Shown here: in pieces, positions 10,971-53,598 of the stretch | Layout: every line of letters starts with the position of its first letter | How positions within the stretch are numbered: position 1 is the stretch's first letter | DNA from: Hyunsoonleella flava | GTDB taxonomy: Bacteria > Bacteroidota > Bacteroidia > Flavobacteriales > Flavobacteriaceae | Direction of reading: 5' to 3' | Assembly (NCBI RefSeq): GCF_004310325.1 | Contig: NZ_SIRT01000004.1 | Span: 124,001-188,000 of the forward strand | Length of the DNA stretch: 64,000 nt | Position numbers and translations under genes: made by a program | Notes under the pieces: model-generated | Seen by the model: the letters and a program-made list of their open reading frames with translations, nothing else | Database searches by the model: none | Told to the model about the DNA's origin: nothing

Positions 10971-10977
10971 CGCGCTC

Positions 10978-33756: not shown

Positions 33757-36700
33757 TAAGCAAAGTGGTTATTGTTTGTTCTATATTATTAGCATAAGAT
33801 GAAATAGTAGGATAATTAAATACATCGGTTATTGACATATCCAATTCCAAAATAGACTTTAGGCGCGATGTAATAGCAATGGCACTTAAAGAATTCCCTC
33901 CTATTCTGATAAAATTTTCATTCACACCAATGACCTCTAGTTTTAAAACATCAACCCATACATCATGTACAATTTCCTCAATTTCGTTTTGCGGAGGGAT
34001 TTTGGTTTTTGGTTTCTCAATATCCTTACGTAAATTTGTTCTGGGCAGTTTTTTTCTATCTACTTTTCCGCTAGGTAAAAGTTCAAAACCATCTAAATGC
34101 ACGTAAATTTGAGGTACCATGTACTCTGGAAGCCTCTCCTCTAAACCTTTAATAATTAAGGGTTCGTCTACTTGGACACCAACATAAAACGCCACTAGAT
34201 TTGCATCATCATCAACAGCGACTATGGCCTGAGAAATACCATTTATATTCTCTAATTGCCGTTCTATCTCACCAAGCTCTATTCTAAGGCCCCTTAGTTT
34301 TATTTGATTATCTAATCTACCATGAAATTCTATAGCACCATCTTGTCTATATCTAGCCAAATCCCCAGTTTTATACATAGTAGTATTTGGGTTTTTTGAA
34401 AATATATCTTTAACGAAACGTTCCTTTGTTAGTCCTTCTCTATTTAAATAACCTTTGGCTACCTGCTTGCCTGCGATATACAATTCTCCAATAACACCAA
34501 TTGGTAATCGATTTAAAGCGGGGTCGAGAATATACAGTTTAGTATTGGCTACAGGTTTACCTATTGGGATACCATGCTGCAGTTCTTCTTTCTTACAATG
34601 CCAGCTAGTAACATCAACCGATGCCTCTGTGGGTCCGTACAAATTATGCACCTCAACATCTAACTTCTCAAAGGTTTTCTGTACAACAGCAACTGAGAGT
34701 GATTCCCCGCTACAAAATATCCTAGTTAAGCTTATGCAGTGTTCTATCCCTTCTGTTTGAACAAACACGTTCAACATGGATGGCACAAAGTGAATATTAG
34801 TAACTTTATGTTTACGGATGGTACGCACCAATTGCTCTGGGTTTTTATGCCCATTAGGTATTTCAACCACTAACCTAGCGCCTTCTTGTAAAGGCCAGAA
34901 TAGCTCCCAGACCGATACGTCAAAGGTTATTGGTGTTTTTTGGATAAAGGTATCATTGTTTGAAATGGGATAATCATCATTCATCCAATGAAGCCTGTTA
35001 CAAATGCCTTCATGATGGCATTTTACACCTTTTGGTTTCCCAGTACTGCCTGATGTATAGATAATATAGGCCAAATCATTTGTTGATAGTTCTACTGAAG
35101 GCGTTGTAATTGGAAATTGATGCAAATTAGTATTTAGCGTTTCTGTGGAAACGGTATGAAAATCATGAGTTATGCTTTCATAAATTTCATCATGATTATA
35201 AAACAGGAGTTTTACTCCGGCATCTTTTAAGATAAAAGCTAATCGTTTATGAGGTGTCTCAGTATCTATTGGCAAATAAGCGCCACCAGCCTTAATAATA
35301 CCGTAGATGTAAACCATCATGTCTAAAGACCTGTTTAAGCTCACCGCAATTACATCATTGCAATTTACACCTTTACTAATTAAAAAATGAGCTACTTGAT
35401 TCGCTTTTTCGTCTAAATCTTTATATGAAAGTTTTTCTCCTTCAAATATCAATGCAGTATTTTCAGGTGATTTTTGGACTTGTTCTTCAAACTTTGTCAA
35501 TAAGGTTTCATTTCTGGGATACTGCACCTTGGTATTGTTCCAAGATTCAATTTTAGCAATTTCACCATCAGTGGCTATAGACACGGTATCAATCGCTTGA
35601 TTGGGGTTATCAATAAAAGCATCTAAAACTTTTAAAAAATGCCGCCATGCTATATCCTGTAAATCCGTATCAAAAATTTTAGTATTAAAATCAAAGTAAA
35701 GCTTAATGCTTCCAGTGTTATCAAAATCATGCACGTGAAACCTTAAATGATGCCTCGGATCCATGTGCCCTGGATGTACCCAACTTGTGCATACAGGTTT
35801 ATTATTGAAACAAGTGCCATTGCCGGTATTGATGTAATTATAAAGCACATTGTAGGCCCTGCTCATTTCTACTGTGGAAGCTCCTGTTCGGGCATTTTTC
35901 AAAAATGCATTACTTTCCACCTGTATTTTTTTAATTAGGGAAAAGAAGGTCTCACGTGCCTCTATTTTAGCGTAAATTGGAAAACTCTCAACAAAAAAGC
36001 CTAATGTGTCTCTAAAACTTTTTTTAGTACGATTGTGCGTTGGAGAGCCAATGACAAAACTTTCTTGACCAGAAATACGGTAAACGTATGCAAAAAGTGC
36101 AGTTAAAAAGATATTATAAAGTGTTAAGTCTAAACTCCAGCCTTTTATACCCTTAGCATTGGCCAATTCATTGATCCTTTCTGAACGTTCCATGCCTAAG
36201 TTTACTAATATACGTTTGGAATTGGTGCTTAGTAGTGTATCTTTTTTATGATACAATTCTGGGGCAGTAGGAAATATTGATTGTTTTTCTTTCCAATAGG
36301 TAGCTGCTTCTAATCCTCCGTCTTGCTCATTTATAATTTCTGTATGGTCTAGAAATGCTTTATAGGAAGGAAACATTTCCACCTCGTCCATTGTATTGGA
36401 TAATGCTTTTTCATAAAGCTGGGACATTCTTGAAAATAGAATGGTAGTACTGTAGCCATCCGTTATTAAATGATGCTGGTTGATATACCACATAAAATGG
36501 TTGCTTGCAAGTTTTATCAAAGCACAATCAAAGAGGCACTGGCTTAGGTTAAAATGAAACTTGACCCTTTCCTTTTCCCAGGTTTTATAAGTTTCAAGAG
36601 GATGTTCTTCTGAAGAAAAATCTATAACATCAAGTTCATACTTAATATTCGAGAGACAAATTTGGACGGGTATGCCTTCTTTCTCCATAAAAACGGAGCG

Positions 36701-36877
36701 CAAGACATCACTTGTCTCAACTAACTTTTGAAACGCAAGCTTGAAATGGGATACTGAAATGGCATCCTTAATCTCATACACCATAATCATGTTATACATT
36801 GGAGATTCAGGGTTTAAATCCTGACCAATCCAAAGTAATTGTTGATTTTGGGTTAAAGACAAGTATGTATTATCCAT
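33749..36877 (-). CDS. Nonribosomal peptide synthetase, C-A-T, serine-type pocket
   Basis: A 1042-residue one-module synthetase. The condensation domain (1-440) has its active-site motif HHLITDG at 135-141. The adenylation domain (about 455-955) has YTSGSTGKPKG (a3), YGPTE (a5), YKTGDLARY (a7), LRGLRIELGEIE (a8) and PSGKVDRKKLP (a10). The carrier domain has IGGNSLSAI with the phosphopantetheine Ser. Reading the ten pocket positions by alignment to GrsA gives DVWHFSLVDK, the code of serine domains such as EntF. It should add Ser to the acyl group on the free carrier protein encoded just upstream. Confidence 0.93.
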   Translation of the reverse strand: MDNTYLSLTQNQQLLWIGQDLNPESPMYNMIMVYEIKDAISVSHFKLAFQKLVETSDVLRSVFMEKEGIPVQICLSNIKYELDVIDFSSEEHPLETYKTWEKERVKFHFNLSQCLFDCALIKLASNHFMWYINQHHLITDGYSTTILFSRMSQLYEKALSNTMDEVEMFPSYKAFLDHTEIINEQDGGLEAATYWKEKQSIFPTAPELYHKKDTLLSTNSKRILVNLGMERSERINELANAKGIKGWSLDLTLYNIFLTALFAYVYRISGQESFVIGSPTHNRTKKSFRDTLGFFVESFPIYAKIEARETFFSLIKKIQVESNAFLKNARTGASTVEMSRAYNVLYNYINTGNGTCFNNKPVCTSWVHPGHMDPRHHLRFHVHDFDNTGSIKLYFDFNTKIFDTDLQDIAWRHFLKVLDAFIDNPNQAIDTVSIATDGEIAKIESWNNTKVQYPRNETLLTKFEEQVQKSPENTALIFEGEKLSYKDLDEKANQVAHFLISKGVNCNDVIAVSLNRSLDMMVYIYGIIKAGGAYLPIDTETPHKRLAFILKDAGVKLLFYNHDEIYESITHDFHTVSTETLNTNLHQFPITTPSVELSTNDLAYIIYTSGSTGKPKGVKCHHEGICNRLHWMNDDYPISNNDTFIQKTPITFDVSVWELFWPLQEGARLVVEIPNGHKNPEQLVRTIRKHKVTNIHFVPSMLNVFVQTEGIEHCISLTRIFCSGESLSVAVVQKTFEKLDVEVHNLYGPTEASVDVTSWHCKKEELQHGIPIGKPVANTKLYILDPALNRLPIGVIGELYIAGKQVAKGYLNREGLTKERFVKDIFSKNPNTTMYKTGDLARYRQDGAIEFHGRLDNQIKLRGLRIELGEIERQLENINGISQAIVAVDDDANLVAFYVGVQVDEPLIIKGLEERLPEYMVPQIYVHLDGFELLPSGKVDRKKLPRTNLRKDIEKPKTKIPPQNEIEEIVHDVWVDVLKLEVIGVNENFIRIGGNSLSAIAITSRLKSILELDMSITDVFNYPTISSYANNIEQTITTLLNE

Positions 36878-36892: not shown

Positions 36893-37129
36893 TTATTTAC
36901 TCAAAAGATAGGCACATACACTATCGACGTTCATAAAATTCTCAATCACCATGTCCTCTGGAGGAACTTTTACCATAAATTCTTTCTCCACAAAAGCTAT
37001 TAGCTGAACCATACCTAAAGAATCTAAAATACCGCTGCCCAACAAATCAGTATCGCTATCAAGATCCTCTTCCATTTCGTTATCAAAAAGCAATTGCTCG
37101 TTGATATATTTTAATATTACTTGTTCCAT
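36893..37129 (-). CDS. Stand-alone peptidyl carrier protein (PCP)
   Basis: A 78-residue four-helix carrier protein. The phosphopantetheine attachment Ser is in GSGILDSLGMV, and the C-terminal half (VPPEDMVIENFMNVDSV) resembles PltL/RedO-type carriers that hold a prolyl group. It lies 2 bases after the stand-alone adenylation gene and 16 bases before the C-A-T gene. It would be activated by the PPTase encoded at 52885-53598. Confidence 0.9.
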   Translation of the reverse strand: MEQVILKYINEQLLFDNEMEEDLDSDTDLLGSGILDSLGMVQLIAFVEKEFMVKVPPEDMVIENFMNVDSVCAYLLSK

Positions 37130-37130
37130 T

Positions 37131-38693
37131 TTAATTCTTCTTTATAGCAATTATTCTTTTTTTATCTATTTTTCCCGAACTTGTTCTTGGTAAATCCTTT
37201 AGTATTTCAAAGTCATCGGGAATGGCATAAATTGCCAAATGTTTTTTACAAAACAGTTTTAATTCCTTGGGCGTTATCACTCTGTCTTCAAAAAGCAATA
37301 TTGCAGCATAAATTTCTTTTTCATTACCTACATTCAAAACCATTACGGCTGCCTCATTAACATCAGGATGATTGATTAACACCGATTCAATTTCATCCAG
37401 GTCTATCCTATATCCTCTAATTTTTACCTGTCTATCATCACGACCCACAAAAAACAAAACACCATTTTCATCTTGATATACAATATCGCCGGTTCTATAA
37501 TACACATATTCAATGCTTGTATCCAAAGTTTCTCGATAAAGTGACTTCTCTGTAAGTTCTTTGTTCTTCCAGTAACCGCTCATCATTGTTCCAGACCGTA
37601 TTACCAATTCTCCTTTTTTCCCTAGCTTAGCTTCTTCATCATCAGTATTAAGAATTTTGAAATCGGTATTTCTCCAAACCTTACCAAGAGGAAGCGATTT
37701 AATATTAGGAGGTAAACTTTGAAAGTTGTAGTAGGTGCACTGGTTAACTTCAGCAGGTCCATATACATTTGAAAATTTAGCATTAGGCCATTTTTTCATT
37801 AGTTCCTTTAAATACTTTAAACCGAAGACCTCACCTCCAAAAAGCACCCATCTTAAAGATGCCATATTTAATTTATCCAGCATTCCAGAATTTAATAGCT
37901 GTATTAAAGCCAAAGGAACTGAATACCAAATGGTTATATTTTCATTTCCTATAAGTTGTGCTAAACTACTGGGAAGTTTAGTGTGCGCATCTGACACCAA
38001 AACAGTACTGGCTCCCACCAATGGTGCGCTAAAATATCCAAAAGTAGAAATATCAAAGTTAATGGGCGCATGATTGCCCACTCTGTCCTCATGGTTTAAA
38101 CCATATAAGTCTGATGATAATTTTGCATAAGACAGCCCGCTTTTATGGGTATGCATTATGCCTTTCGGCTCCCCAGTTGAACCTGAAGTAAACATAATGT
38201 AGGCCAAGTCGTTTTCTAAAATTTTTATTGGTTGGTATTCTGTCAAATCAATCTTAAATATATCTTCCCATGATATGGTTTTAACAGGAACATCATGTGT
38301 TAGCCCTATGATACATTTCAAACTCAAATTATGTCCCAACAACTTCGTAACTTTAGATTTTAGTGTTGGTGAGGAAATTAAAAATGTTATTTCACAATTT
38401 TCTAGAACTAATTTTGTCCTGGTATGCGGTGCAGTAAAATCCAATGGTACGTATACTGCTCCTGCTTTCAAAATACCATAAATTGCAATTACAGTTTCCA
38501 AGCACCTGTTAAGATAAATGCCTACTCTATCTCCTTTTTTAACCCCAGAATCAATTAAATATTTAGCCAATTGACTAGTTTTTGTATCTAATTGAAAAAA
38601 AGTAACGGTATTGGTACTGTTCTTAAAAGCTTCTCGATTTGGATAAAGCTTAGCTGAGTTTTTTACTATATCCGGAAGTGTAAATAACTGCAT
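37131..38693 (-). CDS. Stand-alone amino acid:PCP ligase (prolyl-like pocket)
   Basis: A 520-residue adenylation enzyme without condensation or carrier domains. Core motifs: FTSGSTGEPKGI (a3), YGPAEVNQCTYY (a5), YRTGDIVYQ (a7), KIRGYRIDLDEIE (a8) and SSGKIDKKRI (a10). Pocket positions read as DIFYLGVQCK, close to the DLFYLALVCK type reported for RedM/PltF prolyl-AMP ligases (six identical, the others conservative apart from Q for V). This supports L-proline or a close analogue, loaded on the adjacent carrier. One base separates it from the dehydrogenase gene, so it is tightly co-transcribed. Confidence 0.85.
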   Translation of the reverse strand: MQLFTLPDIVKNSAKLYPNREAFKNSTNTVTFFQLDTKTSQLAKYLIDSGVKKGDRVGIYLNRCLETVIAIYGILKAGAVYVPLDFTAPHTRTKLVLENCEITFLISSPTLKSKVTKLLGHNLSLKCIIGLTHDVPVKTISWEDIFKIDLTEYQPIKILENDLAYIMFTSGSTGEPKGIMHTHKSGLSYAKLSSDLYGLNHEDRVGNHAPINFDISTFGYFSAPLVGASTVLVSDAHTKLPSSLAQLIGNENITIWYSVPLALIQLLNSGMLDKLNMASLRWVLFGGEVFGLKYLKELMKKWPNAKFSNVYGPAEVNQCTYYNFQSLPPNIKSLPLGKVWRNTDFKILNTDDEEAKLGKKGELVIRSGTMMSGYWKNKELTEKSLYRETLDTSIEYVYYRTGDIVYQDENGVLFFVGRDDRQVKIRGYRIDLDEIESVLINHPDVNEAAVMVLNVGNEKEIYAAILLFEDRVITPKELKLFCKKHLAIYAIPDDFEILKDLPRTSSGKIDKKRIIAIKKN

Positions 38694-38694
38694 A

Positions 38695-39846
38695 CTACAA
38701 ACCTAAAATTTGAGAGATGATATTGCGTTGAATATCTGATGTTCCTGCATAAATTACACCACCAACAGCATCCCTTAAATTGCGCTCTACTTCAAACTCG
38801 GTTAGGTAACCAGACCCGCCGTGGCACCTTATGGCATCTAAACTTGAGCTAATAAAGCTTTCGCTTAAGTGTAATTTTAAAAGAGCCGCTTCCATCATAG
38901 CAGATTTACCTTGGCTTTTTAACCACGCCACTTTATAAAGTAGTAATCTGGAAGTTTCTAAACGCAACTTCATATCTGCAATTCTGTTTGAAATGGATTG
39001 AAATCCTCCAATGGACTGCCCAAATTGCTTTCTGCCTTTTACGAATTTAATAGTATCTTCCAGTTGATATTCCATAGCACCTAATTGGCTCGCCAGAATA
39101 TTGCACCTATCATACTCTAATGATGCAATGGTAATACTCCAACCTGCGCCCTCCTTACCTAATCTGTTTTCTTCCGGAACAAAGCAATCCTTAAATTCCA
39201 AATCACCAATGGGTACGGTTCTTAGACCCATTTTGCTTTTGTTAGCGCTTCGTTTAAATCCTTTAGAATTTGATTCGACTATAAAGCCACTTACTCCCCA
39301 CTTTCCGAGTTTAGGATTTGTTTTTGCAAAAACCAGCACCATATCGCAAATAGGTCCTAAAGTAATTAATCTCTTAGAGCCATTTAAAAGATAACCACCA
39401 TCAACTTTAGTGGCTGTGGTCTCCATATTAAAAATATCAGAACCTGCATTAGCTTCAGTCAAACCGTGGCTTCCAATCCATTCTCCTGAAGCCAAAGGTT
39501 TTAAATATTTTTCTTTTTGAAACGCATTACCAAACTGGGCAATGGGCAGCTGTACTGTCCACATTTGGGCATTAAGGCTAAATGGCAAACCATTATCCCT
39601 ACACCCATAACCCAGCCCTTCCATGGCCAAGGTTGCCGTTAAAATATCAATGTCGTCTTCATGCCCACCATACTTTTTTGGACTTGCCAAACCCTGTATG
39701 CCAAACTTTGCACATTTGTTCCAATCCTCTCGGGAAAACTCCAGGACATGATCGCGTTCACTAATGGAATTGTTGAGGTTTTGTTCAGCAAATTCAATTA
39801 CTTTTTTCTTATACTCAATTTGAGCTTTACTCCAAGATAAATCCAA
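38695..39846 (-). CDS. Acyl-CoA dehydrogenase-like flavoenzyme (PltE/RedW type)
   Basis: A 383-residue acyl-CoA dehydrogenase fold: GLTEANAGSD for FAD, GRKQFGQSIG, and a C-terminal YAGTSDIQRNII. It sits beside the prolyl-like ligase and carrier, the same trio used to turn prolyl-S-PCP into pyrrolyl-S-PCP. The residue before the conserved Arg, Glu in the isovaleryl-CoA/PltE class, is here Asp246 (LEYDRCN), with Glu244 two residues before it. The usual MCAD-type Glu is also absent (Ala in YAGTS). The start is TTG at 39846 because the frame closes upstream. Confidence 0.85.
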   Translation of the reverse strand: MDLSWSKAQIEYKKKVIEFAEQNLNNSISERDHVLEFSREDWNKCAKFGIQGLASPKKYGGHEDDIDILTATLAMEGLGYGCRDNGLPFSLNAQMWTVQLPIAQFGNAFQKEKYLKPLASGEWIGSHGLTEANAGSDIFNMETTATKVDGGYLLNGSKRLITLGPICDMVLVFAKTNPKLGKWGVSGFIVESNSKGFKRSANKSKMGLRTVPIGDLEFKDCFVPEENRLGKEGAGWSITIASLEYDRCNILASQLGAMEYQLEDTIKFVKGRKQFGQSIGGFQSISNRIADMKLRLETSRLLLYKVAWLKSQGKSAMMEAALLKLHLSESFISSSLDAIRCHGGSGYLTEFEVERNLRDAVGGVIYAGTSDIQRNIISQILGL

Positions 39847-39911
39847 AATAGTAGGTGTTCATTAATATTAAAATTCTTTTAATTGTAAGTATCAATTTAA
39901 CGAATTTGCAA

Positions 39912-39940: not shown

Positions 39941-40034
39941 ATCAAACCTTTAAACCGTAGCTTAACCATTAATTACTTAAGTTTGACGAAAATAATCGTT
40001 AATTTTTCTTCATTATGAAATCTAATGTATTTTT

Positions 40035-40184: not shown

Positions 40185-40223
40185 ATCAAACACAACAAGT
40201 GGAGTATAATATAGCACGATGAT

Positions 40224-41858: not shown

Positions 41859-41925
41859 CATAGTGTTAAACAAATCTCCTAAATACGAAATCAAGACATA
41901 AGGTAACTAATTGTAGAAGACGCTA

Positions 41926-42990
41926 TTAAACATTAGCCTTATGTTTAATAAAATGATAAGGATTTTTTACATCCTTACTAATATTTTCAAGTGAAATATC
42001 AATACCTATACTAAATTCCTTTGCCAAATCCATAAATAAATCCATAACCACTTGGTCCTCTAATGCTAGACCTGTAGAATCGAAAACTGTTAGTGAATTT
42101 CTTTGCTCTTTAAAGGCATCATAATTTTGAATAATACCTACCAAATCTGAACCAATCTCATCATCACTAAGTTGCTGGCACTCTCCTTCAATTTTTGCTT
42201 GCATTGTAAAATCTGGGCATACAAAACTATTGCGTAATAATGATAAAGGCAATTCAATTTTTCCTGGAAAGTCTGATCCAATGGCATTTATGTGTAGGTG
42301 TTCTTTAACATCATATTTATCAAACAAAGGCCCCTCACCAACATCAATAGAAGTAGCAGTACAAACAATATCACTTTCTTGTAAAATACTTTGAATATTA
42401 GATGATACAACTTCAATATTCAAATCAAGAATTTCAATTCTTTTACTAAAAGAATCCATACATTCTACATCCGTATCAAAAATCAAAACTTTTTTTATTG
42501 GAAATAGTCTAGATATTGCATGCAATTGGGTAATACACTGTGCGCCACAACCAACCAGACCAAGTGTTTCACTCTTAGGGTGTGCAAGATACTTTGTGGC
42601 AACTGCAGATGCTGCACCAGTTCTAAGTGCTGTAAGCAATACACCATCGGCTAAACCTTTTAAGTGTCCTGTTTTTGTATCATAAGACGAAATAGTTGAC
42701 AGAATTGTAGGTAAATTGAAATTAGCTGGATTTTTGGGATGATACCCAACAACTTTAATAACAACTTCTTCACCTTTTTTATAAACTGGCATCCATTCTA
42801 CTAATCCGGGGTTGTCATTAGTATAATTAAAACCCGAACGTATTGGAATAGTTGTTTCTTCAGGATTAAAGTTTTTAAATTCATTTATGAGCCTAAAGAT
42901 CAAGTCGTCCATTAACCTGTTTTTCCCATAGTCATTCATTATAGAATTAACATCGGTGGCAGACAATAACAGCGTAGTAATTTTGCTCAT
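41926..42990 (-). CDS. Ornithine cyclodeaminase / mu-crystallin family protein
   Basis: About 354 residues. The NAD-binding GLVGCGAQCITQLHAI motif and the preceding LLTALRTGAASAVATKYL segment are family hallmarks. Members convert ornithine to proline, lysine to pipecolate, or act as reductive dehydrogenases in diaminopropionate synthesis. Next to a prolyl-like ligase, supply of L-Pro or a ring analogue is the simplest reading, which is inference. ATG 42990 is preferred over a TTG at 43014 that adds eight residues. Confidence 0.85.
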   Translation of the reverse strand: MSKITTLLLSATDVNSIMNDYGKNRLMDDLIFRLINEFKNFNPEETTIPIRSGFNYTNDNPGLVEWMPVYKKGEEVVIKVVGYHPKNPANFNLPTILSTISSYDTKTGHLKGLADGVLLTALRTGAASAVATKYLAHPKSETLGLVGCGAQCITQLHAISRLFPIKKVLIFDTDVECMDSFSKRIEILDLNIEVVSSNIQSILQESDIVCTATSIDVGEGPLFDKYDVKEHLHINAIGSDFPGKIELPLSLLRNSFVCPDFTMQAKIEGECQQLSDDEIGSDLVGIIQNYDAFKEQRNSLTVFDSTGLALEDQVVMDLFMDLAKEFSIGIDISLENISKDVKNPYHFIKHKANV

Positions 42991-43227
42991 AGCTTTATTA
43001 AAACGCACTTGCAAAGGGTTATCAGCAAGCGTTTTTTTTGAAATTTAAAGATTTTTATGAAATAAATTACTCAAATGCTACATGTTTCGACAAGTGGCTG
43101 TATTTTCAAGACATTGAACATTTATATTTCTAAAAAGCAGTATTTAATCGATTATTTGGGGATTTTAATATTTTGGAAAGTATTTTTCTTTACTTGTATA
43201 AAAAATTGCCAACCTTAAACCAGTAAC

Positions 43228-44454
43228 ATGATGAAATGTGATTTTAATAAGAAAACTAGTTTTTTTATTGCCCTTTTTCTTTTCTTACCACTTATAGTTC
43301 TTAGTCATATTCCCAATCAAAGTTATATTTTCCTCAGAATTTATGAGACAAATGGTATTCACGGAAGGTTTGAGATAAACACTAGGGAAATCAATAAGAT
43401 TTTTGGTAGTAGTTTTGATGATTCTGCTACTCTGGAAGATATTCAACCATACATTGAAGATATTCAAGCGTACTTATTGAGTCATAGCAATTTTTCGTCA
43501 GAAACAGGAAACCATAAAGTAATTTTTGGAGAAGTGGGTATGTTCGAATTTAATTTAGGCGATTTTGTTCAATTGCATTTTCAGTTGGAAAATACCGAAA
43601 AGGTACCTGATGAATTACAGGTGACCTATGATGCCGTTTTTGAAAAAGATAATACGCATCGCGGTTACTTGATAACGGAATATAACTGGAGGGCTGGTGT
43701 AATTAACGAAGAACGAAATATTACCCTAGACTTTGCACCCGGAAGCGCGACAGACACCATGGATTTGAACAAATACTCGGTCTGGAACGGATTTTATGCC
43801 ATGATAAAACAAGGCGTTTGGCATATTTGGATTGGTCTGGATCATATTCTATTTCTTTTGGCTCTAATTTTACCATCTGTTGTAAGAAGGAAGAGCAGCA
43901 GTATTTTTGGCTGGGAACCGGTAATGACATTTAAGTCGGCTTTTCTATACATAATTAAAGTTGTTACCTTTTTTACTATTGCCCACACTATAACACTTAC
44001 TCTTGCTTCATTAGAAATTGTAATGTTGCCATCAAGACTTGTTGAATCCATAATTGCTTTCTCCATAGGTTTAGCGGCATACCATAACATCAAACCCATT
44101 TTTAAAATGAGAGACTGGATTATTGCTTTTATTTTTGGGTTATTTCACGGGTTTGGTTTTGCCAGTGTTTTAAGTGATTTAGGTTTAACTGGTGAATTTT
44201 TAACACTTTCGCTTTTAGGCTTCAACGTAGGTGTAGAAATCGGTCAGTTAGTGATTATTGCAGCTATTTTCCCTATCCTCTATTTCATAAGAAAACGTAA
44301 TTTTTATCCCAAGCTTTTGGTATTCTTGTCTGGATTATTAATCATAATCTCCTTATATTGGTGTATTGAAAGAGTTTTTGACATCAATTTACCACTGGAC
44401 GAACAGATATTTCAGTTGCTGTATAAAGTGGCTAAAGCTACAGGATTAAAATAA
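43228..44454 (+). CDS. HupE/UreJ-family membrane protein with large exported domain
   Basis: A 408-residue protein: an N-terminal signal segment, an exported region of about 190 residues, and six or seven helices in the C-terminal half. The latter shows the HupE/UreJ signature GVWHIWIGLDHILFLLALILP and FGLFHGFGFASVL. Proteins of this family are thought to move nickel, cobalt or other transition metals. It opens the right arm of the NRPS cluster, 41 bases before the first synthetase gene. This, with the TonB receptor in the other arm, points to metal acquisition. Confidence 0.82.
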   Translation: MMKCDFNKKTSFFIALFLFLPLIVLSHIPNQSYIFLRIYETNGIHGRFEINTREINKIFGSSFDDSATLEDIQPYIEDIQAYLLSHSNFSSETGNHKVIFGEVGMFEFNLGDFVQLHFQLENTEKVPDELQVTYDAVFEKDNTHRGYLITEYNWRAGVINEERNITLDFAPGSATDTMDLNKYSVWNGFYAMIKQGVWHIWIGLDHILFLLALILPSVVRRKSSSIFGWEPVMTFKSAFLYIIKVVTFFTIAHTITLTLASLEIVMLPSRLVESIIAFSIGLAAYHNIKPIFKMRDWIIAFIFGLFHGFGFASVLSDLGLTGEFLTLSLLGFNVGVEIGQLVIIAAIFPILYFIRKRNFYPKLLVFLSGLLIIISLYWCIERVFDINLPLDEQIFQLLYKVAKATGLK

Positions 44455-44464
44455 ATTGCACTTG

Positions 44465-44492
44465 AAAATTTTCAAAATAAAATTTTCAAAAT
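44465..44492 (+). repeat. Tandem 14-base repeat before the NRPS start
   Basis: AAAATTTTCAAAAT occurs twice back to back (44465-44478 and 44479-44492), ending three bases before the ATG at 44496. Each unit includes the palindromic core of GAAAATTTTC. It could be a regulatory or slippage element. Confidence 0.6.
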
Positions 44493-44495
44493 ACT

Positions 44496-47426
44496 ATGTC
44501 TGAAAAAGAAAAAAGTAAAGCCTCTTTGCTAGAGAGGTGGAAAAACAAAAAAAAACAGGAAAAGCAGTTAACCAGCAAAATTAGCAAAGTTCCTGAAGGT
44601 ATCCACATACCTTTATCTTACGGACAAAAACGTTTGTGGTTCTTGCAGCAAATGTACCCTAATAGCCCGTTTTACAACTACTCAGAAGTTTATATACTTA
44701 GTGGCAAACTTAACGTAGAAATTTTAAAACAAGCTTTATCAAAGATTTATGAAAGACACGATGTTTTAAAAAGCACATATCATGAGGAAAATGGTAAGAT
44801 ATATCAAGTGGTAAATGAAGATATCCCTTTTGAAATAAATGAATATGATGTTTCAGCCCCAGATGGTAAAACTTCAAAAACTAAGGCACAAAATATCCTT
44901 AATAAGTATACAAAACATAGTTTTGATCTACAAAATGGCCCTTTGCTTAAAGTGTGTATTATAAAATTAGGAGCAAAGAAACATTATCTCCAATTAAGTA
45001 TGCACCATATTGTTACCGATGAGTGGAGTATGATAATTTTTAGGAAACAACTTTCTGAATACTACATAAAGCTTCTCGCTGGGAAAAGTGTGACCGGTAA
45101 AAAAAACAACATTCAGTTTACCGACTATGCTTACTGGGAATCTAAACAGAGCTTAAAATCTAAAAATAAAGAGTATTGGAAACATAAGCTTTCAGGGGAA
45201 ATTCCAGTTTTAAATCTCCCAACAGATTATACACGACCTATAAAATCAACCTTTAAGGGAAAACTATCACCAAAGGAAAGTTTTAGTAAACAGTTTTCCC
45301 AAAGAATATTTGATACGGCAAATAAACTGGACATAACACCTTTTGTGCTAATACTATCTGTGTATTATGTTATGCTTTACAGATCTAGCGGACAAAAGGA
45401 TATTTTGGTGGGTTCGCCAGTCACGGATAGAGATAATTCGTCACTCGAAAGTGTTTTTGGTTTTTTTCTTAATACACTTGTACTGAGGGTTAAAATAACT
45501 CCTAGCATAACATTTAGAGATTTTGTAGAACATGTAAAACAAACAACTCTCGAGGCTATAAGTCATAAAAACATGCCCTTTAGCGAGCTAGTTAAAGTTA
45601 TAAAAGTCGAGCGTCGTTCGTCCACCAATCCTTTTTTTAGGGTAATGTTTGTTTATAATGAACCTCTTAAAACACCGTCGTTTGGAGAAAATTTAGAAGT
45701 AGAACATAAGTTTTTGGATCCTAAAGTTTCAAAATTTGATTTAACATTGTTTGTTTCTGAAGAAGGTGGAGCGTTGAGCTATAGATTTGAATATTCAACA
45801 GAGTTATTTACCACTTCAAGCATTGATAGGTTTCAAAACTACTTCAACAACGTATTACAAGGAATAGTGTTCAACTCTGAGTTAAAAATTCAAAACATAC
45901 CTATACTTGCCCAAAACGAGAAAAATTTGCTTTTTGGGAATACAAAGATTTATGAAAATCATTTCAAAGCGTTTAATGGTATACACCAGATAATTGAGCA
46001 ATATGCCCAAAGTACTCCATACGCTAGAGCCGTTACCTACAAAAAAGAGCATTTAACCTATAAAGAGCTCAATGAAAAGGCTAATGCTATAGGCAAAGAA
46101 CTCATATCCAATAATTCAACGGAAAATCATGTTATAGGCTTATGCATTGAAAGATCTACAGACATGATTGTGGGCATACTGGCCATATTAAAATCTGGAA
46201 GCTCCTATTTACCATTGGATCCAGAATACCCAAAGGAGCGTATAGACTTTATGATAGAAGATGCTGAGGTTAAAACAATTTTAACCACACAGGCTTTTTC
46301 AGATAAGTTTGCACATAGCAAAGCCGCTAAAGTTTACATTGACACCAAAGAAAGAAGTGTTTCTATTGACAATATCAATTTTCCAAAATCCAAGGCTTCA
46401 AATTTAGCATATATTATCTACACGTCAGGAAGTACGGGAAAACCTAAAGGTGTACCAATTACGCATAAAAATATTATGAGTTCAACCGAGGGAAGACTTA
46501 GCTTTTATGATAAAAATCCATCGGCGTTTCTACTAATGTCATCTATATCTTTTGATAGTTCAAAGGCTGGTATTTTTTGGACACTATGTACAGGTGGTAA
46601 TTTAGTAATTGCTGAAAAACGTATTGAACAGGATATAGATAAATTAGGGGACATGATAGATGAAAACAACATTAGCCATACCCTGATGCTACCATCGCTC
46701 TATAAACTAATGCTTCAGTATGTTAATATTACCAAACTGAAAAGCCTTACACACGTAATGGTTGCAGGAGAAGCCTGTAGCGCTAACCTTTGTATTGAAC
46801 ATTTTGAAAAATTGCCTAGTACTAATTTATATAATGAGTACGGTCCTACAGAAGGCAGTGTTTGGTGTATTGCCCATAAAATAAAACAAGAGAATATTGA
46901 TGACGGAATAATTCCTATTGGCGAGCCTGTTGCAAATTCAAAAATATATTTGTTAGATGAACAGCTAAATCCTGTGCCATTTAGTATTGTAGGCGAAATT
47001 TATCTAGGAGGCCCCGGATTAACATCAGGTTATATTAAAAGACCTGATTTAAATCAAAAAGCATTTATTATCAACCCTTTCAATCCACCTGAAAAGCTTT
47101 ATAAAACGGGAGATCTAGCAAAATATAACAGAAATAAAAAATTAGAATTTTTAGGACGAAGCGATCAACAAATAAAAATAAGAGGCTATAGAGTTGAACT
47201 AAGTGAAATTGAAAAAGTAATTGCAGCATACAGCGATGATATAGATGATACGTTTGTTTTAATTGAAAACAATAACTCTGAGCTACCAGGTGGTATCGAC
47301 ATCATTGTCAATCTGGAAGAAAACATAAATAGGCTCATTGAACAAATAAGTATAAAGGAAATTGAAAACATGATTTCTTCGGTAAAAGCGTTAAGTAACG
47401 AACAAAAAAATACTTACTTAACATAA
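44496..47426 (+). CDS. NRPS with C domain and A domain lacking motifs a9-a10 (His-type pocket)
   Basis: A 976-residue synthetase: condensation domain (about 35-470) with HHIVTDE at 170-176 (Glu for Gly), then an adenylation domain with YTSGSTGKPKG, YGPTEGSVW, YKTGDLAKYN and IKIRGYRVELSEIE (a8). It then ends about 80 residues later without motif a9, a10 or a carrier domain. The missing tail opens the protein at 48233-50455. Pocket positions read DSALMAEVWK, close to the DSALIAEVWK-type code I associate with histidine. The 18 bases after its TAA stay in frame with the methyltransferase gene. Activity would need the tail in trans. Confidence 0.92.
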   Translation: MSEKEKSKASLLERWKNKKKQEKQLTSKISKVPEGIHIPLSYGQKRLWFLQQMYPNSPFYNYSEVYILSGKLNVEILKQALSKIYERHDVLKSTYHEENGKIYQVVNEDIPFEINEYDVSAPDGKTSKTKAQNILNKYTKHSFDLQNGPLLKVCIIKLGAKKHYLQLSMHHIVTDEWSMIIFRKQLSEYYIKLLAGKSVTGKKNNIQFTDYAYWESKQSLKSKNKEYWKHKLSGEIPVLNLPTDYTRPIKSTFKGKLSPKESFSKQFSQRIFDTANKLDITPFVLILSVYYVMLYRSSGQKDILVGSPVTDRDNSSLESVFGFFLNTLVLRVKITPSITFRDFVEHVKQTTLEAISHKNMPFSELVKVIKVERRSSTNPFFRVMFVYNEPLKTPSFGENLEVEHKFLDPKVSKFDLTLFVSEEGGALSYRFEYSTELFTTSSIDRFQNYFNNVLQGIVFNSELKIQNIPILAQNEKNLLFGNTKIYENHFKAFNGIHQIIEQYAQSTPYARAVTYKKEHLTYKELNEKANAIGKELISNNSTENHVIGLCIERSTDMIVGILAILKSGSSYLPLDPEYPKERIDFMIEDAEVKTILTTQAFSDKFAHSKAAKVYIDTKERSVSIDNINFPKSKASNLAYIIYTSGSTGKPKGVPITHKNIMSSTEGRLSFYDKNPSAFLLMSSISFDSSKAGIFWTLCTGGNLVIAEKRIEQDIDKLGDMIDENNISHTLMLPSLYKLMLQYVNITKLKSLTHVMVAGEACSANLCIEHFEKLPSTNLYNEYGPTEGSVWCIAHKIKQENIDDGIIPIGEPVANSKIYLLDEQLNPVPFSIVGEIYLGGPGLTSGYIKRPDLNQKAFIINPFNPPEKLYKTGDLAKYNRNKKLEFLGRSDQQIKIRGYRVELSEIEKVIAAYSDDIDDTFVLIENNNSELPGGIDIIVNLEENINRLIEQISIKEIENMISSVKALSNEQKNTYLT

Positions 47427-47444
47427 CCAATTAGATATACAGCT

Positions 47445-48236
47445 ATGAGAAAAATTAAACGATCTAGAGCATTTGAAATAGTACTTAATGTAACTGATGA
47501 TGATTTTATAAATCCTCCAAAAGAAGCTCAGAGAAATGCAGTGATTAATCGAGCCTTAAAAGAATTTGTAGGTAATTTGAATATTTTAAATGAGCAAACT
47601 AAGCACTTCGTGCCCGGTGAGACGGTGCATGCCACAAAGAAGGATAGGTCTCAAATAACTCTTGAGGCTCAAGAAATTATGGAAGATTGGCAAATCCCCC
47701 TTATGAAAGAAATGGCCAAAACAATTGCTGAAGATGGTGGAGATATTTTAGAAATTGGTTTTGGAAGAGGCATATCAGCGGAAATGATAATGGCATACCC
47801 CATCGCTTCTTATACCACAATTGAGTGTAATAATACCGTTGTAGATACCTATTATAAACCGTTTGAGGCTAAACATAGCAACAAAAATGTAAAACTGTAC
47901 CATGGCCTGTGGCAAGACCATATAGATTATGTTGGCAAATACGATGGCATATTATTTCATACTTATCCGTTAAACGATGATGAATATATGCAGTACGTTA
48001 ATGGCAGTATCACTTTTGCCGAACATTTTTTTGAACATGCCTCAAACCACTTAAAACCAGGTGGTGCGTTTACCTATTTCTCGAATGAAATAAATTCTTT
48101 AAGCAGAGAACACCAGCAGTTGTTGTTAAAACATTTTTCCTCATTTAGTATACAAGCACTTCCCCTATCTATTCCAGATGATGTTAAAGACACTTGGTGG
48201 GCAAACAGTATTGCAGTGATTAAAGCAGTGAAATGA
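47445..48236 (+). CDS. GAMT-like SAM-dependent methyltransferase between halves of an A domain
   Basis: A 263-residue methyltransferase. Motif I is DILEIGFGRGISAE (100-113), followed by TIECNN (125-130), GLWQDH (154-159) and DGILFHTYPL (167-176), with LKPGGAFTYF later. These match guanidinoacetate N-methyltransferase-like enzymes rather than the usual NRPS N-methyltransferase domains. In interrupted A domains a methyltransferase sits between a8 and a9. Here it is a free-standing gene at exactly that position. Its ATG is in frame with the upstream stop, and its TGA overlaps the next ATG (ATGA). It may methylate His, either the imidazole or the amine. Confidence 0.85.
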   Translation: MRKIKRSRAFEIVLNVTDDDFINPPKEAQRNAVINRALKEFVGNLNILNEQTKHFVPGETVHATKKDRSQITLEAQEIMEDWQIPLMKEMAKTIAEDGGDILEIGFGRGISAEMIMAYPIASYTTIECNNTVVDTYYKPFEAKHSNKNVKLYHGLWQDHIDYVGKYDGILFHTYPLNDDEYMQYVNGSITFAEHFFEHASNHLKPGGAFTYFSNEINSLSREHQQLLLKHFSSFSIQALPLSIPDDVKDTWWANSIAVIKAVK

Positions 48237-50455
48237 CAAAACAGGAACTAGTACAAAAAATAAATGAACTCTCATCTGACGAGAAAAAGTTACTTGCCTA
48301 CAAGTTAAATGAGGCTTTACATTCAAAACCTAAGGATAAGGGCGAAGACTCTTCAAAGAAAATAATAGCATTTCTGAAGGCTAATAATTCTTTAAACAAA
48401 GAAAATCTTAAAACTTACTTAAGGAAAGAGCTTCCAGAATATATGATACCATCTTCAATTGAAATTTTGAAAGAAATACCATTACTTCCCAATGGAAAGG
48501 TGGATAAAAATAGTTTACTCAAAATTAAAGAGAAAACTATACCAGTACAAGATACCCATGACATTTTTGCAACATCAAAAAATGAGATAGAACAAAAGTT
48601 GGTAAAAATATGGGAAGATGTTTTAGGGTTTGAGCCCATAAGTACAAACGATAACTTTTTTGAAATTGGTGGCGACTCCATATTGAGTATTCAAATTATA
48701 TCAAGAGCTCGTAATGAAGGTATTGATTTAAAAGCGAATCAGTTATTCGAAAACCAAACTATAGCAGAACTTGCGCTTATAGCAAGTCAAAGCACAGATT
48801 CTGAGGATGAAAAAGATGACACCAAAATCATTCAGGATAAGCTCGTTAACATTTGGGAAGAGGTTTTAGGATTTTCTCCAATTCATACAAACGATAACTT
48901 TTTTGAAATTGGTGGAGATTCTATTTTAAGCATTCAAATAATTGCCAAGGCACGTAAAGTAGGTATTGAACTAAAAGTTAATCATTTATTTGAAAATCAA
49001 ACTATAGAAGCACTATCGCAAGTTGCCAGTATCCCGGGCGATAAGGATTTAGTAACTAATAAAAATGTAGAACTTAAAGGAGAAGTCCCCCTAACCCCAA
49101 TTCAACATTGGTTTTTTGAAACGCATAAAAAAGCACCGCACTATTGGAATCAAATTATAGAGCTACACAATATCGATAACATAACAAGCGGAACCCTTGA
49201 AAATATATCAGAACAAATTATTGCCACTCATGAAGCACTACGGTTAGGTTTTAAAAATAACTCCGGAAAGTGGACTGCATTTATTAAGCCCGCAGCACAA
49301 ACAAAAGTGTTTTACAAAATTAATGTAACCGGGCAGTCTGCAAACGAACAAAATGATAGAATAAATACAGAATTACTAAAGCTACAGCACGAAACAGATT
49401 TAGCTAAAGACAGCCTATTTAAGGTTTTATATTTTGATTGCAATTCAATTCAAACCAATAAAATAATTATTGTTGCGCATCATTTAGTTGTGGATCATAT
49501 ATCTTGGAATATTATTTTTAATGACATTAAAAGTGCCTTAAGTGATACAACTTCAAAACAAAATCATAGAACGACAATAAAAGATTGGAGCGATTACCTT
49601 ATTCAACTATCAAAACATGTAGATTTCAAAGAGTTGAAATATTGGGAGTCACAATTAGTTGAACACCAAAAGCTCCCGACCGATTATACTTCTGGAGTTT
49701 CTGTCTTTGCCGAAGATACCACTTTTACACATTCAGTTGAGTTGTATAAAGAGCAAACCGAGAATTTAGTTAACAATGCAAATTCAGCCTACAATACTAC
49801 AATTGAAGATTTGTTAATTACGGCACTAATTGCTACCATTGGTAACTGGAGCAATTTAGAACGCATCACCTTAGGTATAGAAAAACAAGGACGTACCATA
49901 AAAGATTTGGAAATGGATTTTTCCAATACAGTCGGTTGGTTTACATCTTATTTTCCTGTTACATTAAACTCTATTAATGTTGAAGATACAACACTAATTA
50001 TAAAAACAACCAAAGAGCAACTAAGAGCTATACCAAACAATGGCATAGGCTTTGGTATTTTAAAATACCTCGCCAACAATAATGAGGTATTAGATAAAAT
50101 AAAGCCAAAAATTCTATTTAACTATCTTGGTAAATCTACCAAATCTCATAACAAAAATGCACTAGACCATTCCTTTGCAAAAGGTCTATTATCAAGATAT
50201 CCGGAGAGTGAACGCCACTATGAAATTGAAATTAATGCATATATTACAGATGGAAAATTGATTGCCAACTGGAGTTTTGCCAAAACTCTTTATAAAGAGA
50301 GTACCGCCATAATGCTAGCCAATACGTTTATAAGTTACTTAAATAGTATCATTCAACATTGTTTGAGTAAAGAAGGCGTATCTTATACGCCTTCAGATTT
50401 CTCCGAAGTAGATCTTGATCAAGATGATCTAGATAATCTTTTAAGCCAATTTTAA
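48233..50455 (+). CDS. NRPS: A-domain tail (a9-a10), two carrier domains, epimerization domain
   Basis: A 740-residue protein. Residues 60-100 hold motif a9 (LPEYMIPSS, 67-75) and a10 (NGKVDKNSL, 87-95) with its Lys, which the 976-residue synthetase lacks. Two carrier domains follow, with Ser149 and Ser230 in IGGDSILSIQII. The E domain (283-740) shows PLTPIQHWFF, HHLVVDHISW, GIEKQGRT, DFSNTVGWFT and IGFGILKYL, so it should epimerize the loaded residue. The first 35 residues may be a linker helix that meets the upstream half. Confidence 0.92.
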   Translation: MTKQELVQKINELSSDEKKLLAYKLNEALHSKPKDKGEDSSKKIIAFLKANNSLNKENLKTYLRKELPEYMIPSSIEILKEIPLLPNGKVDKNSLLKIKEKTIPVQDTHDIFATSKNEIEQKLVKIWEDVLGFEPISTNDNFFEIGGDSILSIQIISRARNEGIDLKANQLFENQTIAELALIASQSTDSEDEKDDTKIIQDKLVNIWEEVLGFSPIHTNDNFFEIGGDSILSIQIIAKARKVGIELKVNHLFENQTIEALSQVASIPGDKDLVTNKNVELKGEVPLTPIQHWFFETHKKAPHYWNQIIELHNIDNITSGTLENISEQIIATHEALRLGFKNNSGKWTAFIKPAAQTKVFYKINVTGQSANEQNDRINTELLKLQHETDLAKDSLFKVLYFDCNSIQTNKIIIVAHHLVVDHISWNIIFNDIKSALSDTTSKQNHRTTIKDWSDYLIQLSKHVDFKELKYWESQLVEHQKLPTDYTSGVSVFAEDTTFTHSVELYKEQTENLVNNANSAYNTTIEDLLITALIATIGNWSNLERITLGIEKQGRTIKDLEMDFSNTVGWFTSYFPVTLNSINVEDTTLIIKTTKEQLRAIPNNGIGFGILKYLANNNEVLDKIKPKILFNYLGKSTKSHNKNALDHSFAKGLLSRYPESERHYEIEINAYITDGKLIANWSFAKTLYKESTAIMLANTFISYLNSIIQHCLSKEGVSYTPSDFSEVDLDQDDLDNLLSQF
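48643..48915 (+). repeat. Internal duplication of the carrier domain, 30 identical bases
   Basis: 48643-48672 and 48886-48915 are identical over 30 bases, 243 bases (81 codons) apart, within the two consecutive carrier domains of the preceding gene. The similarity spans the flanking codons less perfectly. It indicates tandem duplication of the carrier domain. Confidence 0.85.
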
Positions 50456-50466
50456 CCAAAATCTTA

Positions 50467-52875
50467 ATGGGAACAAATACAACTAAATCATCAGTAGAAG
50501 CCATTTACCCTCTAAGCTACATGCAACAAGGGATGTTGATGCACCATTTATCCAATGATGTAGATCAAGGCTTTTTAAATACTGAATGCTGCTTAAAAGG
50601 TGATTTAAAGCTTGATGTTTTCAAACAGGCTTGTACCATTGTTCTTAAAAGGCACGAAGTTTTGCGCGCCACCATTCATTGGAAAAATTTAGAAAAGCCC
50701 GTTCAAGTTATCCATAAGGAGAAAGAAATTGATATTAGGTATTTAGATTGGGAAAAACTATCTGAAGAAGAGCAAAAAAGTAAATGGAAAACTTTAAAGT
50801 ACAGCTCTTCCTTAGAAAAGGCGCCACTAGAAAAAGGTGCTTTACTGAACATTAGCATTATCAAATTATCCAGTAAGCTCCACAAACTTTTGTGGCCCAT
50901 GCACCATATTCTATTGGATGGATGGTCTGCTAGTTTGCTTATTAAGGATATTTTGAATTGTTACAACACGATTCATAATGGTGAAGCTATTACGGTACAG
51001 CCGTTGCCAAATTACAAAGCATACTTAAATTACATTAAAAGCTTACCAGAAGAAAATGCAAAGACTTTTTGGGGCAACTATTTAAAAGATTTTAAAAATG
51101 CATCCCTTTTCAGCAATATAAAGATCAACAAAAAAGAAGATGTACAAGAAACATTTTCCACAAATAGTTTTTCGCTTACAGAGGAAGCCACAGCAAAACT
51201 AAAAACCTATTGCAAACAACATAAAATAACAACAAATATATTTATACAAAGTGTTTGGTCTCTTGTATTAGCGTTATATTTTAATAAAACCGACGTAACC
51301 CATGGCAATACCGTTTCTGGAAGAAGTGGAGATTTCGCAAGTCTGGATAAAATGACTGGTATGTTTATGAACGTACAGCCTGTACGTGGAAAAATTGATT
51401 CAGAGTTAGACTTTCCAAGTTGGTTTGCCTCAATACAAAAATTACATTTTGAAGCCAGAAACTACGAACATACTAGCCTCGATAAGCTTTACTCTTATTG
51501 TGATTGGCCAGAACACGCCACTATGTTTGACAGCCTTATAGTTTTTGAAAATTACCCAACTATAAATGAAAAAAAGGCTGGTCTTGAAGCCATAAATATA
51601 AAAAGTGGACTAACATCTACCTATTCCGTAACTTTAGCTATATTACCAAATAATTGCATGGAATTTGTACTTACCACTAGCACAACTTATATAAATACAG
51701 ATACAGCACAATGGATTGTAAATACTTTAGAAAAAGCTATTTCGCTAATTATTTTGGGAGAAGTTACTACTTATAAAGCTTTAAAATCCCACCTAGAGCC
51801 CTTTAAACAATTTTCATCAACTACTGAGACTGCTTCAAGTGCAACCAATCAAGGCCATAATGTACCTAAAAACAAAACCGAACTGCAACTTTTACAAATA
51901 TGGGAGCATGTTTTAGGCATTAATAACATAAGTACTACGTCCAATTTTTTTGAGTTAGGAGGCAAGTCGCTTATAGCAGTTAAACTATTTTCAATCATTA
52001 ATAAAACCTTCAAAACAAAATTATCTGCAACGGCGCTTTTGGAATATCCATCCATAGAGCTTCTCTCTAACCATATACTTTCAGGAACTAAAAGTGAATC
52101 GTTTCAATTTATAGTACCTATCCGCTCTTCAGGCGATAAGAAACCTATTTTTTGCCTACACGGTGGCGGTGGGTATGTGATTTTTTTCAACCCCCTTGTG
52201 CAAGCTTTAGAAAATGATATTCCTGTTTACGCCTTACAGCCCGCGGGCATCAATAGCAGTAATGAAATGCACAATAGCTTAGAAGAAATGGCTATAGACT
52301 ATGCTAAGGAAATAAAAGCCGTACAACCTAGTGGCCCTTACAATTTGTTAAGTTATTGTTTTAGTACTGGCCTAGGAATAGAAATAGCAAATATTTTTAA
52401 AGCTGAAGGTGAAGAAACCAACCTTGTAGTGATAGATAGCATCATAAAGCAAGAGGATTTTACAAGCCCAGATAGAATTAAAATGCGCATTAGCGGGTTT
52501 TTGGGCAGAATACGTAAAAACCCAGTAAACGCCATTAAACTTATGGTCTTAAATCAGTACTACAAATTCATACATCCGATAGTTTCAAACCTTTTTGCCT
52601 CTAAAAGCGACAAACATCTTGAGAAGTTAAAACTTAACCTAAGAAAGATTTATATAAAATATGGTTGGGATAAAAATCACCCAGACAATGTTTTGTTAAT
52701 CCTATCCGATAAAGCCGATAAAAACTTAAACCATACCTACATTAACTCTTGGAAAAGCATTACAGATGGAAAAGTTAATGTGAAGCACACCAATGGCAAA
52801 CACCATCAACTATTCACAGTTCCATATATTTACAGTATAGCAAAAACAATTGAGGCTGAAATTTACAAACACTAA
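50467..52875 (+). CDS. NRPS terminal protein: C domain, carrier domain, Cys-type thioesterase
   Basis: An 802-residue protein without an A domain. The condensation domain (about 10-450) starts with YPLSYMQQGMLMH, usual in domains that accept a D-residue, and has HHILLDG. The carrier domain has LGGKSLIAV. The thioesterase (about 550-802) has SYCFSTG where most have GxSxG, making Cys631 the nucleophile, with Asp657 and His779 or 780 as partners. Cys thioesterases can close strained rings (lactone, lactam) in some pathways. The carrier must be loaded in trans or by transfer, since no cognate A domain is visible. Confidence 0.9.
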   Translation: MGTNTTKSSVEAIYPLSYMQQGMLMHHLSNDVDQGFLNTECCLKGDLKLDVFKQACTIVLKRHEVLRATIHWKNLEKPVQVIHKEKEIDIRYLDWEKLSEEEQKSKWKTLKYSSSLEKAPLEKGALLNISIIKLSSKLHKLLWPMHHILLDGWSASLLIKDILNCYNTIHNGEAITVQPLPNYKAYLNYIKSLPEENAKTFWGNYLKDFKNASLFSNIKINKKEDVQETFSTNSFSLTEEATAKLKTYCKQHKITTNIFIQSVWSLVLALYFNKTDVTHGNTVSGRSGDFASLDKMTGMFMNVQPVRGKIDSELDFPSWFASIQKLHFEARNYEHTSLDKLYSYCDWPEHATMFDSLIVFENYPTINEKKAGLEAINIKSGLTSTYSVTLAILPNNCMEFVLTTSTTYINTDTAQWIVNTLEKAISLIILGEVTTYKALKSHLEPFKQFSSTTETASSATNQGHNVPKNKTELQLLQIWEHVLGINNISTTSNFFELGGKSLIAVKLFSIINKTFKTKLSATALLEYPSIELLSNHILSGTKSESFQFIVPIRSSGDKKPIFCLHGGGGYVIFFNPLVQALENDIPVYALQPAGINSSNEMHNSLEEMAIDYAKEIKAVQPSGPYNLLSYCFSTGLGIEIANIFKAEGEETNLVVIDSIIKQEDFTSPDRIKMRISGFLGRIRKNPVNAIKLMVLNQYYKFIHPIVSNLFASKSDKHLEKLKLNLRKIYIKYGWDKNHPDNVLLILSDKADKNLNHTYINSWKSITDGKVNVKHTNGKHHQLFTVPYIYSIAKTIEAEIYKH

Positions 52876-52884
52876 ACATATAAT

Positions 52885-53598
52885 ATGCCGAAATACGTAT
52901 TAAATAACAACGTGGATATTTGGCAACTTAATATTTCCCAAACCAAAAGTCATTACGATTACTTCTACAACTTATTATCTAAAGACGAAAAGCTAAAAGT
53001 AGAACGATTCAAGTTTAAAAAAGATAGAATTACATCAACGTTGGCTCGAGGTGTGTTAAGACTATTATTATCAAAATATTTAAACTGCCCTACTGATGCT
53101 ATTATATTCAAATATGGAAAATATGGCAAACCAGAGTTAGTAAATAATAAAACTGCAAAATTTAATGTTTCCCATGCAGGTGAATTTGTAGTTATGGCAC
53201 TTTCAGAAAATACCGAGGTAGGAGTTGATATTGAACAAATTAGATACGACTTTAATATTTTTAATATCGTTAACAATTATTTTTCTAAAACAGAAATAGA
53301 AGCTTTACACAAACTCCCTAGAGCGACACAAACCGAAGCATTTTTTAGAGGATGGACAAGAAAAGAAGCTTTTATTAAGGCCAAATCTCAAGGGTTATCT
53401 TTTCCTCTAGATTCATTTTCTGTATCAATAGATTCAGATATAAAAGCTGAATTAATAGAAACCCTTTGGGATAAAAGCGAAAAAAGCTTATGGCAAATTG
53501 TACCTTTTGAAACCGCTGCAAATTATAAAGCGGCACTTGCAGTAAAGGGACAAATAAACACTATAGAATATTTTAAATACAGCCTAGACTTTATTTGA
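52885..53598 (+). CDS. Sfp-type phosphopantetheinyl transferase
   Basis: A 237-residue enzyme that puts the phosphopantetheine arm on carrier domains. The two core motifs are GVDIEQI near residue 113 and FRGWTRKEAFIKA near 153, with the FNVSHAG segment before them. It ends the right NRPS arm, 9 bases after the C-T-TE gene, so it should activate the five carrier domains in this cluster. The next gene, mnmE, is convergent. Confidence 0.93.
   Translation: MPKYVLNNNVDIWQLNISQTKSHYDYFYNLLSKDEKLKVERFKFKKDRITSTLARGVLRLLLSKYLNCPTDAIIFKYGKYGKPELVNNKTAKFNVSHAGEFVVMALSENTEVGVDIEQIRYDFNIFNIVNNYFSKTEIEALHKLPRATQTEAFFRGWTRKEAFIKAKSQGLSFPLDSFSVSIDSDIKAELIETLWDKSEKSLWQIVPFETAANYKAALAVKGQINTIEYFKYSLDFI

Follow-up and report, generated by a model that had tools for sequence, protein, structure and literature searches.

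In the 64,000-nucleotide stretch of DNA analysed here (the window), from a marine bacterium, the second NRPS module of a gene cluster has its adenylation (A) domain divided over two proteins, the break lying between motifs a8 and a9 (motif names, here and below, are those that we take to apply), with a separate methyltransferase gene between them, and the same cut recurs in 27 distinct three-piece loci, including that of the window, in Bacteroidota, Rhodothermota, Planctomycetota and Pseudomonadota. Judging from these sequences, we consider it likely that one A domain is made from two polypeptides and rebuilt in trans, and that the methyltransferase acts as a separate protein, probably in a complex with both A pieces. 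We offer more tentatively, as a real possibility, the fuller reading that the C domain with the A-domain core, the free methyltransferase and the a9-a10-T piece constitute one noncovalent A-MT-A enzyme that is old and spread over four phyla, and that the uninterrupted forms in Rhodohalobacter and Roseobacter may have been re-joined.

The core protein (44496..47426, + strand; 976 aa) is an open reading frame with Pfam matches to Condensation and AMP-binding, and it comprises a C domain and the A-domain core with motifs a1-a8. Motif a8 (GRSDQQIKIRGYRVELSEIE; 47154..47213, +) is followed by 70 further residues up to the TAA stop codon. These include TFVLIEN (47250..47270, +), which by its place in the A-domain structure would be a strand of the small subdomain and which, in the intact Rhodohalobacter protein and in module-1 A domains, stands directly before a turn and the next strand, and they end with a C-terminal extension (47313..47423, +) predicted to form three helices. 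Junction 1 (47424..47444, +) consists of the TAA (47424-47426) and 18 in-frame bases leading to the ATG at 47445, where the methyltransferase gene (47445..48236, +; 263 aa), related to guanidinoacetate N-methyltransferase (GAMT), begins. At junction 2 (48233..48236, +), which reads ATGA, the start codon at 48233 overlaps the methyltransferase stop codon (48234-48236) in another frame. The tail protein that starts here (48233..50455, +; 740 aa) holds the A-domain remainder followed by T-T-E, with Pfam matches to AMP-binding_C, to two PP-binding stretches and to a Condensation-type (epimerisation/condensation) domain. It opens with a predicted helix-turn-helix (48239..48322, +), and about 40 of its residues precede the first strand leading to a9 (LPEYMIP; 48431..48451, +), which is followed by a10 (PNGKVD; 48488..48505, +) with the catalytic Lys at 48497-48499. 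Compared with the intact orthologue from Rhodohalobacter, both broken ends thus carry extra sequence, the extension of the core protein and the helix-turn-helix of the tail protein being absent there. The open reading frames, motifs, coordinates and both junctions of this arrangement agree with the preliminary description of the locus, as does its placing of the methyltransferase gene where interrupted A domains carry a methyltransferase. As gene order, a1-a8 precede the methyltransferase and a9-a10 follow it as in an interrupted A domain; in place of a single polypeptide, however, the window has three open reading frames, as do 26 other distinct loci.

The division is also visible in profile matches. 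The tail protein alone matches AMP-binding_C from profile position 27 or 28 to position 76 of 76 (26.3 bits), whereas no match to this profile up to an E value of 10 was obtained with the core end by itself. When the core and tail ends of the window were joined in letters, the match covered positions 1-76, which speaks for a single A domain, at 29.2 bits, a small gain that counts against the proposed assembly; the joined halves scored 65.6 bits in locus L012 and 23.9 bits, below the cut-off of 24.5, in locus L010. The window genome has 7 AMP-binding and 5 AMP-binding_C matches (AMP-binding_C at E<=0.01), and the tail protein is the only one of the five AMP-binding_C matches to lie in an open reading frame without an AMP-binding match. 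Conversely, three AMP-binding cores (the split core, the first module and a 600-aa open reading frame) have no AMP-binding_C match in their reading frame, yet a9-a10 are readable in the sequence of the first module (1047 aa).

The split module belongs to a cluster at 33749-53598. Downstream of the tail protein, with its two carrier domains, lie a C-T-TE protein without an A domain (50467..52875, +) and a 4'-phosphopantetheinyl transferase (52885..53598, +), and upstream a HupE/UreJ-type membrane protein (43228..44454, +), whose gene adjoins the core gene in many relatives. Encoded on the opposite strand are the first NRPS module, which has the order C-A-T and whose A domain is uninterrupted (33749..36877, -), a stand-alone carrier protein of 78 aa (36893..37129, -), a stand-alone A domain (37131..38693, -) that from its neighbours is probably for proline, a dehydrogenase nearest to PigA and L-prolyl-PCP dehydrogenase though below both family cut-offs (38695..39846, -), and an ornithine cyclodeaminase family protein (41926..43014, -). 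In pyrrole pathways, proline is converted to a pyrrole-2-carboxyl starter, and the cyclodeaminase, the PigA-like dehydrogenase, the stand-alone A domain and the carrier protein together suggest such a starter for this cluster. Further, a TonB-dependent receptor (30930-33167) and a small His-containing protein (33286-33756) are encoded nearby. Most Bacteroidota loci with a flank long enough to include it have the HupE-type gene, and a few have a TonB-dependent receptor; because the receptor and the HupE/UreJ-type protein stand near the cluster and are met again in several relatives, the product may be one that binds metal.

We scanned genome contigs with an alignment of four methyltransferases, obtained 32 loci and sorted them by BLAST with the window domains and by reading the junctions. 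This locus set is biased, as the scan targeted two short peptides of the methyltransferase, and duplicates (L010, equal to L016; L036, equal to L012; and L011, on the contig of L044) were removed before counting. The 32 loci comprise 26 three-piece loci, three two-piece loci of planctomycetes (L037, L038 and L039), in which the methyltransferase is fused to the core and the cut is at the second place only, one locus fused at a contig end (L045), and those of Roseobacter (L042) and Rhodohalobacter (L044). The hosts of the three-piece loci are Flavobacteriaceae, Cytophagales, Cyclobacteriaceae, Rhodothermota MAGs, one Planctomycetaceae MAG and Pseudomonadota. Of the 30 split loci, 18 have an overlap of 4 bases between the tail start and the methyltransferase stop and 7 an overlap of a single base, the others being L019, L034, L035, L039 and L043; the gap between core and methyltransferase genes measures -4 to 42 bases, and 11 of the 27 three-piece loci have it in frame. 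The a10 Lys is present in all 30, in 26 by pattern and in four (L018, L020, L040 and L043) by eye. The pocket code D-S-[AVT]-x-x-A-E-V-W, with the nine pocket positions placed by alignment to what we take to be the GrsA positions, is found in 33/33 module-2 A domains, and since it is the same in split and intact forms, the split appears to have left the substrate unchanged. We note that in L019 (2874-3700) and L043 (9923-10785) the methyltransferase frame is broken and the core and tail genes are open, and that an open reading frame in L018 (10783-13467) has the odd order A-domain end, T, TE and then an E-type domain. Relatives are rare in genome samples: full-length methyltransferase matches were found in 2 of 60 near relatives and 3 of 395 genomes of the phylum (the window's own counted in both), and in 1 of 294 genomes around a planctomycete and 1 of 398 around a proteobacterium, each being the centre genome. 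Weak methyltransferase matches comprised five in the phylum sample, plus L056 and L057; seven others (L048-L050 and L052-L055) had no A-domain match in their short flanks, and a scan of viral contigs returned no relative.

Pfam and NCBIfam gave only weak matches to the methyltransferase. A search of sequences with solved structures returned GAMT (phmmer, 1e-18; profile E value of 2.8e-27 to human GAMT, 3orh), and by sequence it is a GAMT-family homologue. In GAMT, Glu45 binds guanidine. Rat GAMT Glu45 and Asp134 align with Q83 and H172 of the window methyltransferase, and the first site is Gln in 33/33 rows and the second His in 32/32, the sequence of L045 ending earlier; the first-acid Glu is kept in four other GAMT-like proteins inspected in the alignment and in one from Streptomyces. 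Asp134 is the base in the GAMT mechanism proposed in PMC12471008. Guanidine, which the kinship to GAMT had brought up as a candidate methyl acceptor, is weakened by the replacement of both acids in every readable row, and because of this replacement the methyltransferase is probably, on its sequence, a GAMT scaffold with another acceptor. A plasmid cluster that includes blsE and blsF encodes the Streptomyces protein, a weak tblastn match (27.9%, 53% covered). The BlsL-type guanidine N-methyltransferase (PMC5572114) is a sequence relative of the window methyltransferase. GAMT-like scaffolds do occur in NRPSs, as seen in LynB3, for which PMC10127204 gives a GAMT/arginine-methyltransferase-like domain within an NRPS with a proposed role in tyrosine O-methylation.

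The preliminary description proposed a search of homologous clusters for a fused protein; this yielded the core-methyltransferase fusions of planctomycetes and a syntenic orthologue with an uninterrupted A domain in Rhodohalobacter. The Rhodohalobacter order of a HupE-type gene, C-A-T-E, C-T-TE and phosphopantetheinyl transferase is that of the window, with a contiguous A domain, and its methyltransferase gene lies on the same contig, on the opposite strand and not at a8-a9. Comparison with this protein places the window's break at the turn that joins the small-subdomain strands ATVIF and KLVAFVI. In Roseobacter, too, the A domain is contiguous, and there the methyltransferase follows the TE domain at the C terminus. 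The spacing from GRxD to a9 is 67 residues in Rhodohalobacter, 63 in the first module of the window and 107 in Roseobacter. We considered the Roseobacter a8-a9 insert as a scar of a former split; as 522 of 2000 shuffles scored as high against the core extension, the insert is no nearer to it than shuffled letters, and we do not call it a relic. The linkers of L037, L039 and L045 resemble the free core extension, with 6, 0 and 0 of 2000 shuffles, respectively, scoring as high.

In the A-core tree, the deepest division with good support within the family has split forms on either side, from which we conclude, on the sequences compared, that the split is old; the methyltransferase tree agrees with the A-core tree in outline, and the long branches of L042 and L040 call for caution with both. 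The uninterrupted Roseobacter form groups with the two-piece planctomycetes in the A-core and methyltransferase trees (94/71 and 95/93). Rhodohalobacter lies within the split clade, with Winogradskyella, in the methyltransferase tree (99/98), where grouping the Bacteroidota split rows together without Rhodohalobacter is rejected (p 6.4e-05). Three AU tests on the A-core tree, with p values of 0.36, 0.40 and 0.37, did not fix its position. The uninterrupted Rhodohalobacter form may therefore possibly reflect a re-joining of the halves, but as the A-core tree does not place it, a separate transfer of the methyltransferase gene fits equally well.

The first-module A domain of relatives shows an interruption of its own. 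In five distinct loci it is interrupted at a8-a9 by a domain like the WbuX N-acetyl sugar amidotransferase (TIGR03573), at 1116-5264 (-) of L016 and 7522-11541 (-) of L011 (146 bits, below the cut-off of 203) and also in L040, L042 and L043. The first module of the window is without such an insertion. The interrupted A domains of L016, L043 and L044 have the code DLT[LA]IGEV[GA], which we take to be close to an asparagine code, and an amide-to-amidine step on asparagine is conceivable. Our literature search for an amidotransferase-interrupted A domain returned no paper containing both terms.

In the assembly that we propose, the core protein would supply motifs a1-a8 with the substrate pocket, and also the first half of the small C-terminal subdomain; the tail protein would add the second half with the catalytic Lys, together with the carrier domain to be loaded. 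As the break falls at the turn between neighbouring strands, the two would come together by completing the sheet of the small subdomain in trans, and the extra helices on both broken ends may aid docking. The methyltransferase, as a separate SAM enzyme, would modify the residue on the tail carrier domain as an embedded M domain would, and may lie inside the assembled domain. We infer this assembly, its ATP-PPi activity and the nature of the methyl acceptor from the sequences. Structures were predicted for each piece alone (23 sequences each), and assembly is therefore beyond the reach of the models. In the core model, the extension forms three helices at a mean pLDDT of about 55-70, there is no strand at TFVLIEN, and pLDDT is below 50 at model residues 431-449; both features speak somewhat against the assembly, although they would fit a half-domain awaiting its partner and could also reflect a poor model. 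The tail model has the helix-turn-helix at its N terminus (pTM 0.40).

An error of sequencing or assembly at the second break, for which the broken methyltransferase frames of L019 and L043 might speak, we regard as practically discounted, since the two breaks are present again in isolate genomes and in MAGs from four phyla; the split is natural, as the preliminary description had suggested. The in-frame first gap of the window would also allow the three genes to be read as one A-MT-A polypeptide through stop-codon readthrough and frameshifting. The varying length of this gap and its being in frame at about the frequency expected by chance give no support to conserved readthrough, no shared bases are apparent around the stop codon, and the start/stop overlap in another frame at the second junction, found in 25 of the 30 split loci, is typical of the coupled translation of separate proteins, which leaves a single polypeptide a very slim chance. 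It is likewise unlikely, though a slight chance remains, that core and tail are relics of a degenerate A domain and that another A domain loads the module. Such loading in trans is conceivable because the cluster includes a C-T-TE protein that lacks an A domain, and the genome encodes other AMP-binding proteins (the 7 matches given above); the pocket code and the a10 Lys are, however, conserved over four phyla, and a search of the window genome with the core (E<=1e-20) gave three matches, in which module 1 and the stand-alone A domain are the only other NRPS-type A domains.

The alternative that we take most seriously concerns the methyltransferase and not the A domain, which in this case, too, would reassemble in trans: the methyltransferase may be merely a tailoring enzyme that is transcribed along with the A pieces but works on its own and does not bind them. 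Its complete stand-alone GAMT-related fold is in keeping with this, and its location elsewhere in the Rhodohalobacter cluster and after the TE domain in Roseobacter indicates that a place between the halves is dispensable for its function. On the other hand, its position in 30 split loci is precisely a8-a9, and in the three planctomycete loci a linker joins it to the core, the linkers of L037 and L039, like that of L045, resembling the core extension. We judge an independent methyltransferase to be a strong contender, if somewhat short of probable, and retain reassembly in trans with the methyltransferase probably in the complex as the preferred reading.

A domains that an M domain interrupts at a8-a9, such as TioS, KtzH and others, are covered in a review (PMC11355689), by which the methyltransferase site is the same as in the window but the proteins are single polypeptides; in the accessible portion of PMC9259500, interrupted A domains are only cited. 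By sequence, TioS (5wmm) is matched by the window core at E 6.6e-59, and 5wmm was not among the 13 matches of the methyltransferase profile up to an E value of 10. We found no A domain split over three proteins in the literature searched, which was mostly open-access. Overall, we conclude that what is new here is a methyltransferase that is a protein of its own and related to GAMT without its two substrate-binding acids, and a split that is old and widespread. A cut in the small subdomain that is kept over four phyla marks a place where NRPS modules can open and re-join, and offers a natural split site for NRPSs built from separate proteins. Further, the three-piece, two-piece and uninterrupted forms make up a set of matched orthologues whose substrate codes are almost alike, and this natural set allows one to ask whether the methyltransferase must be tethered to the A domain.

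The closest known system is the corallorazine pair Crz1/Crz2, reported in 2024, in which a split, methyltransferase-interrupted A domain is reported to be inactive alone and active on mixing Crz1.2 and Crz2 (PMC11342130). The preliminary description, whose interpretation is otherwise largely borne out, knew of no earlier account of such a split A domain; this holds only in part, since the principle of an A domain rebuilt in trans is already published, and the arrangement here extends that case. By the published description, the two are alike in that the A domain is cut after a8, the methyltransferase is at the cut, and a9-a10, with the second half of the subdomain, and T open the next gene. 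In Crz, the methyltransferase (nMT) forms one protein with the core, giving two pieces, which is also the plan of the planctomycete loci L037-L039, and the methyltransferase is fused to the core in L045 as well; the window, in contrast, has three pieces, with the methyltransferase free of the core and of another type.
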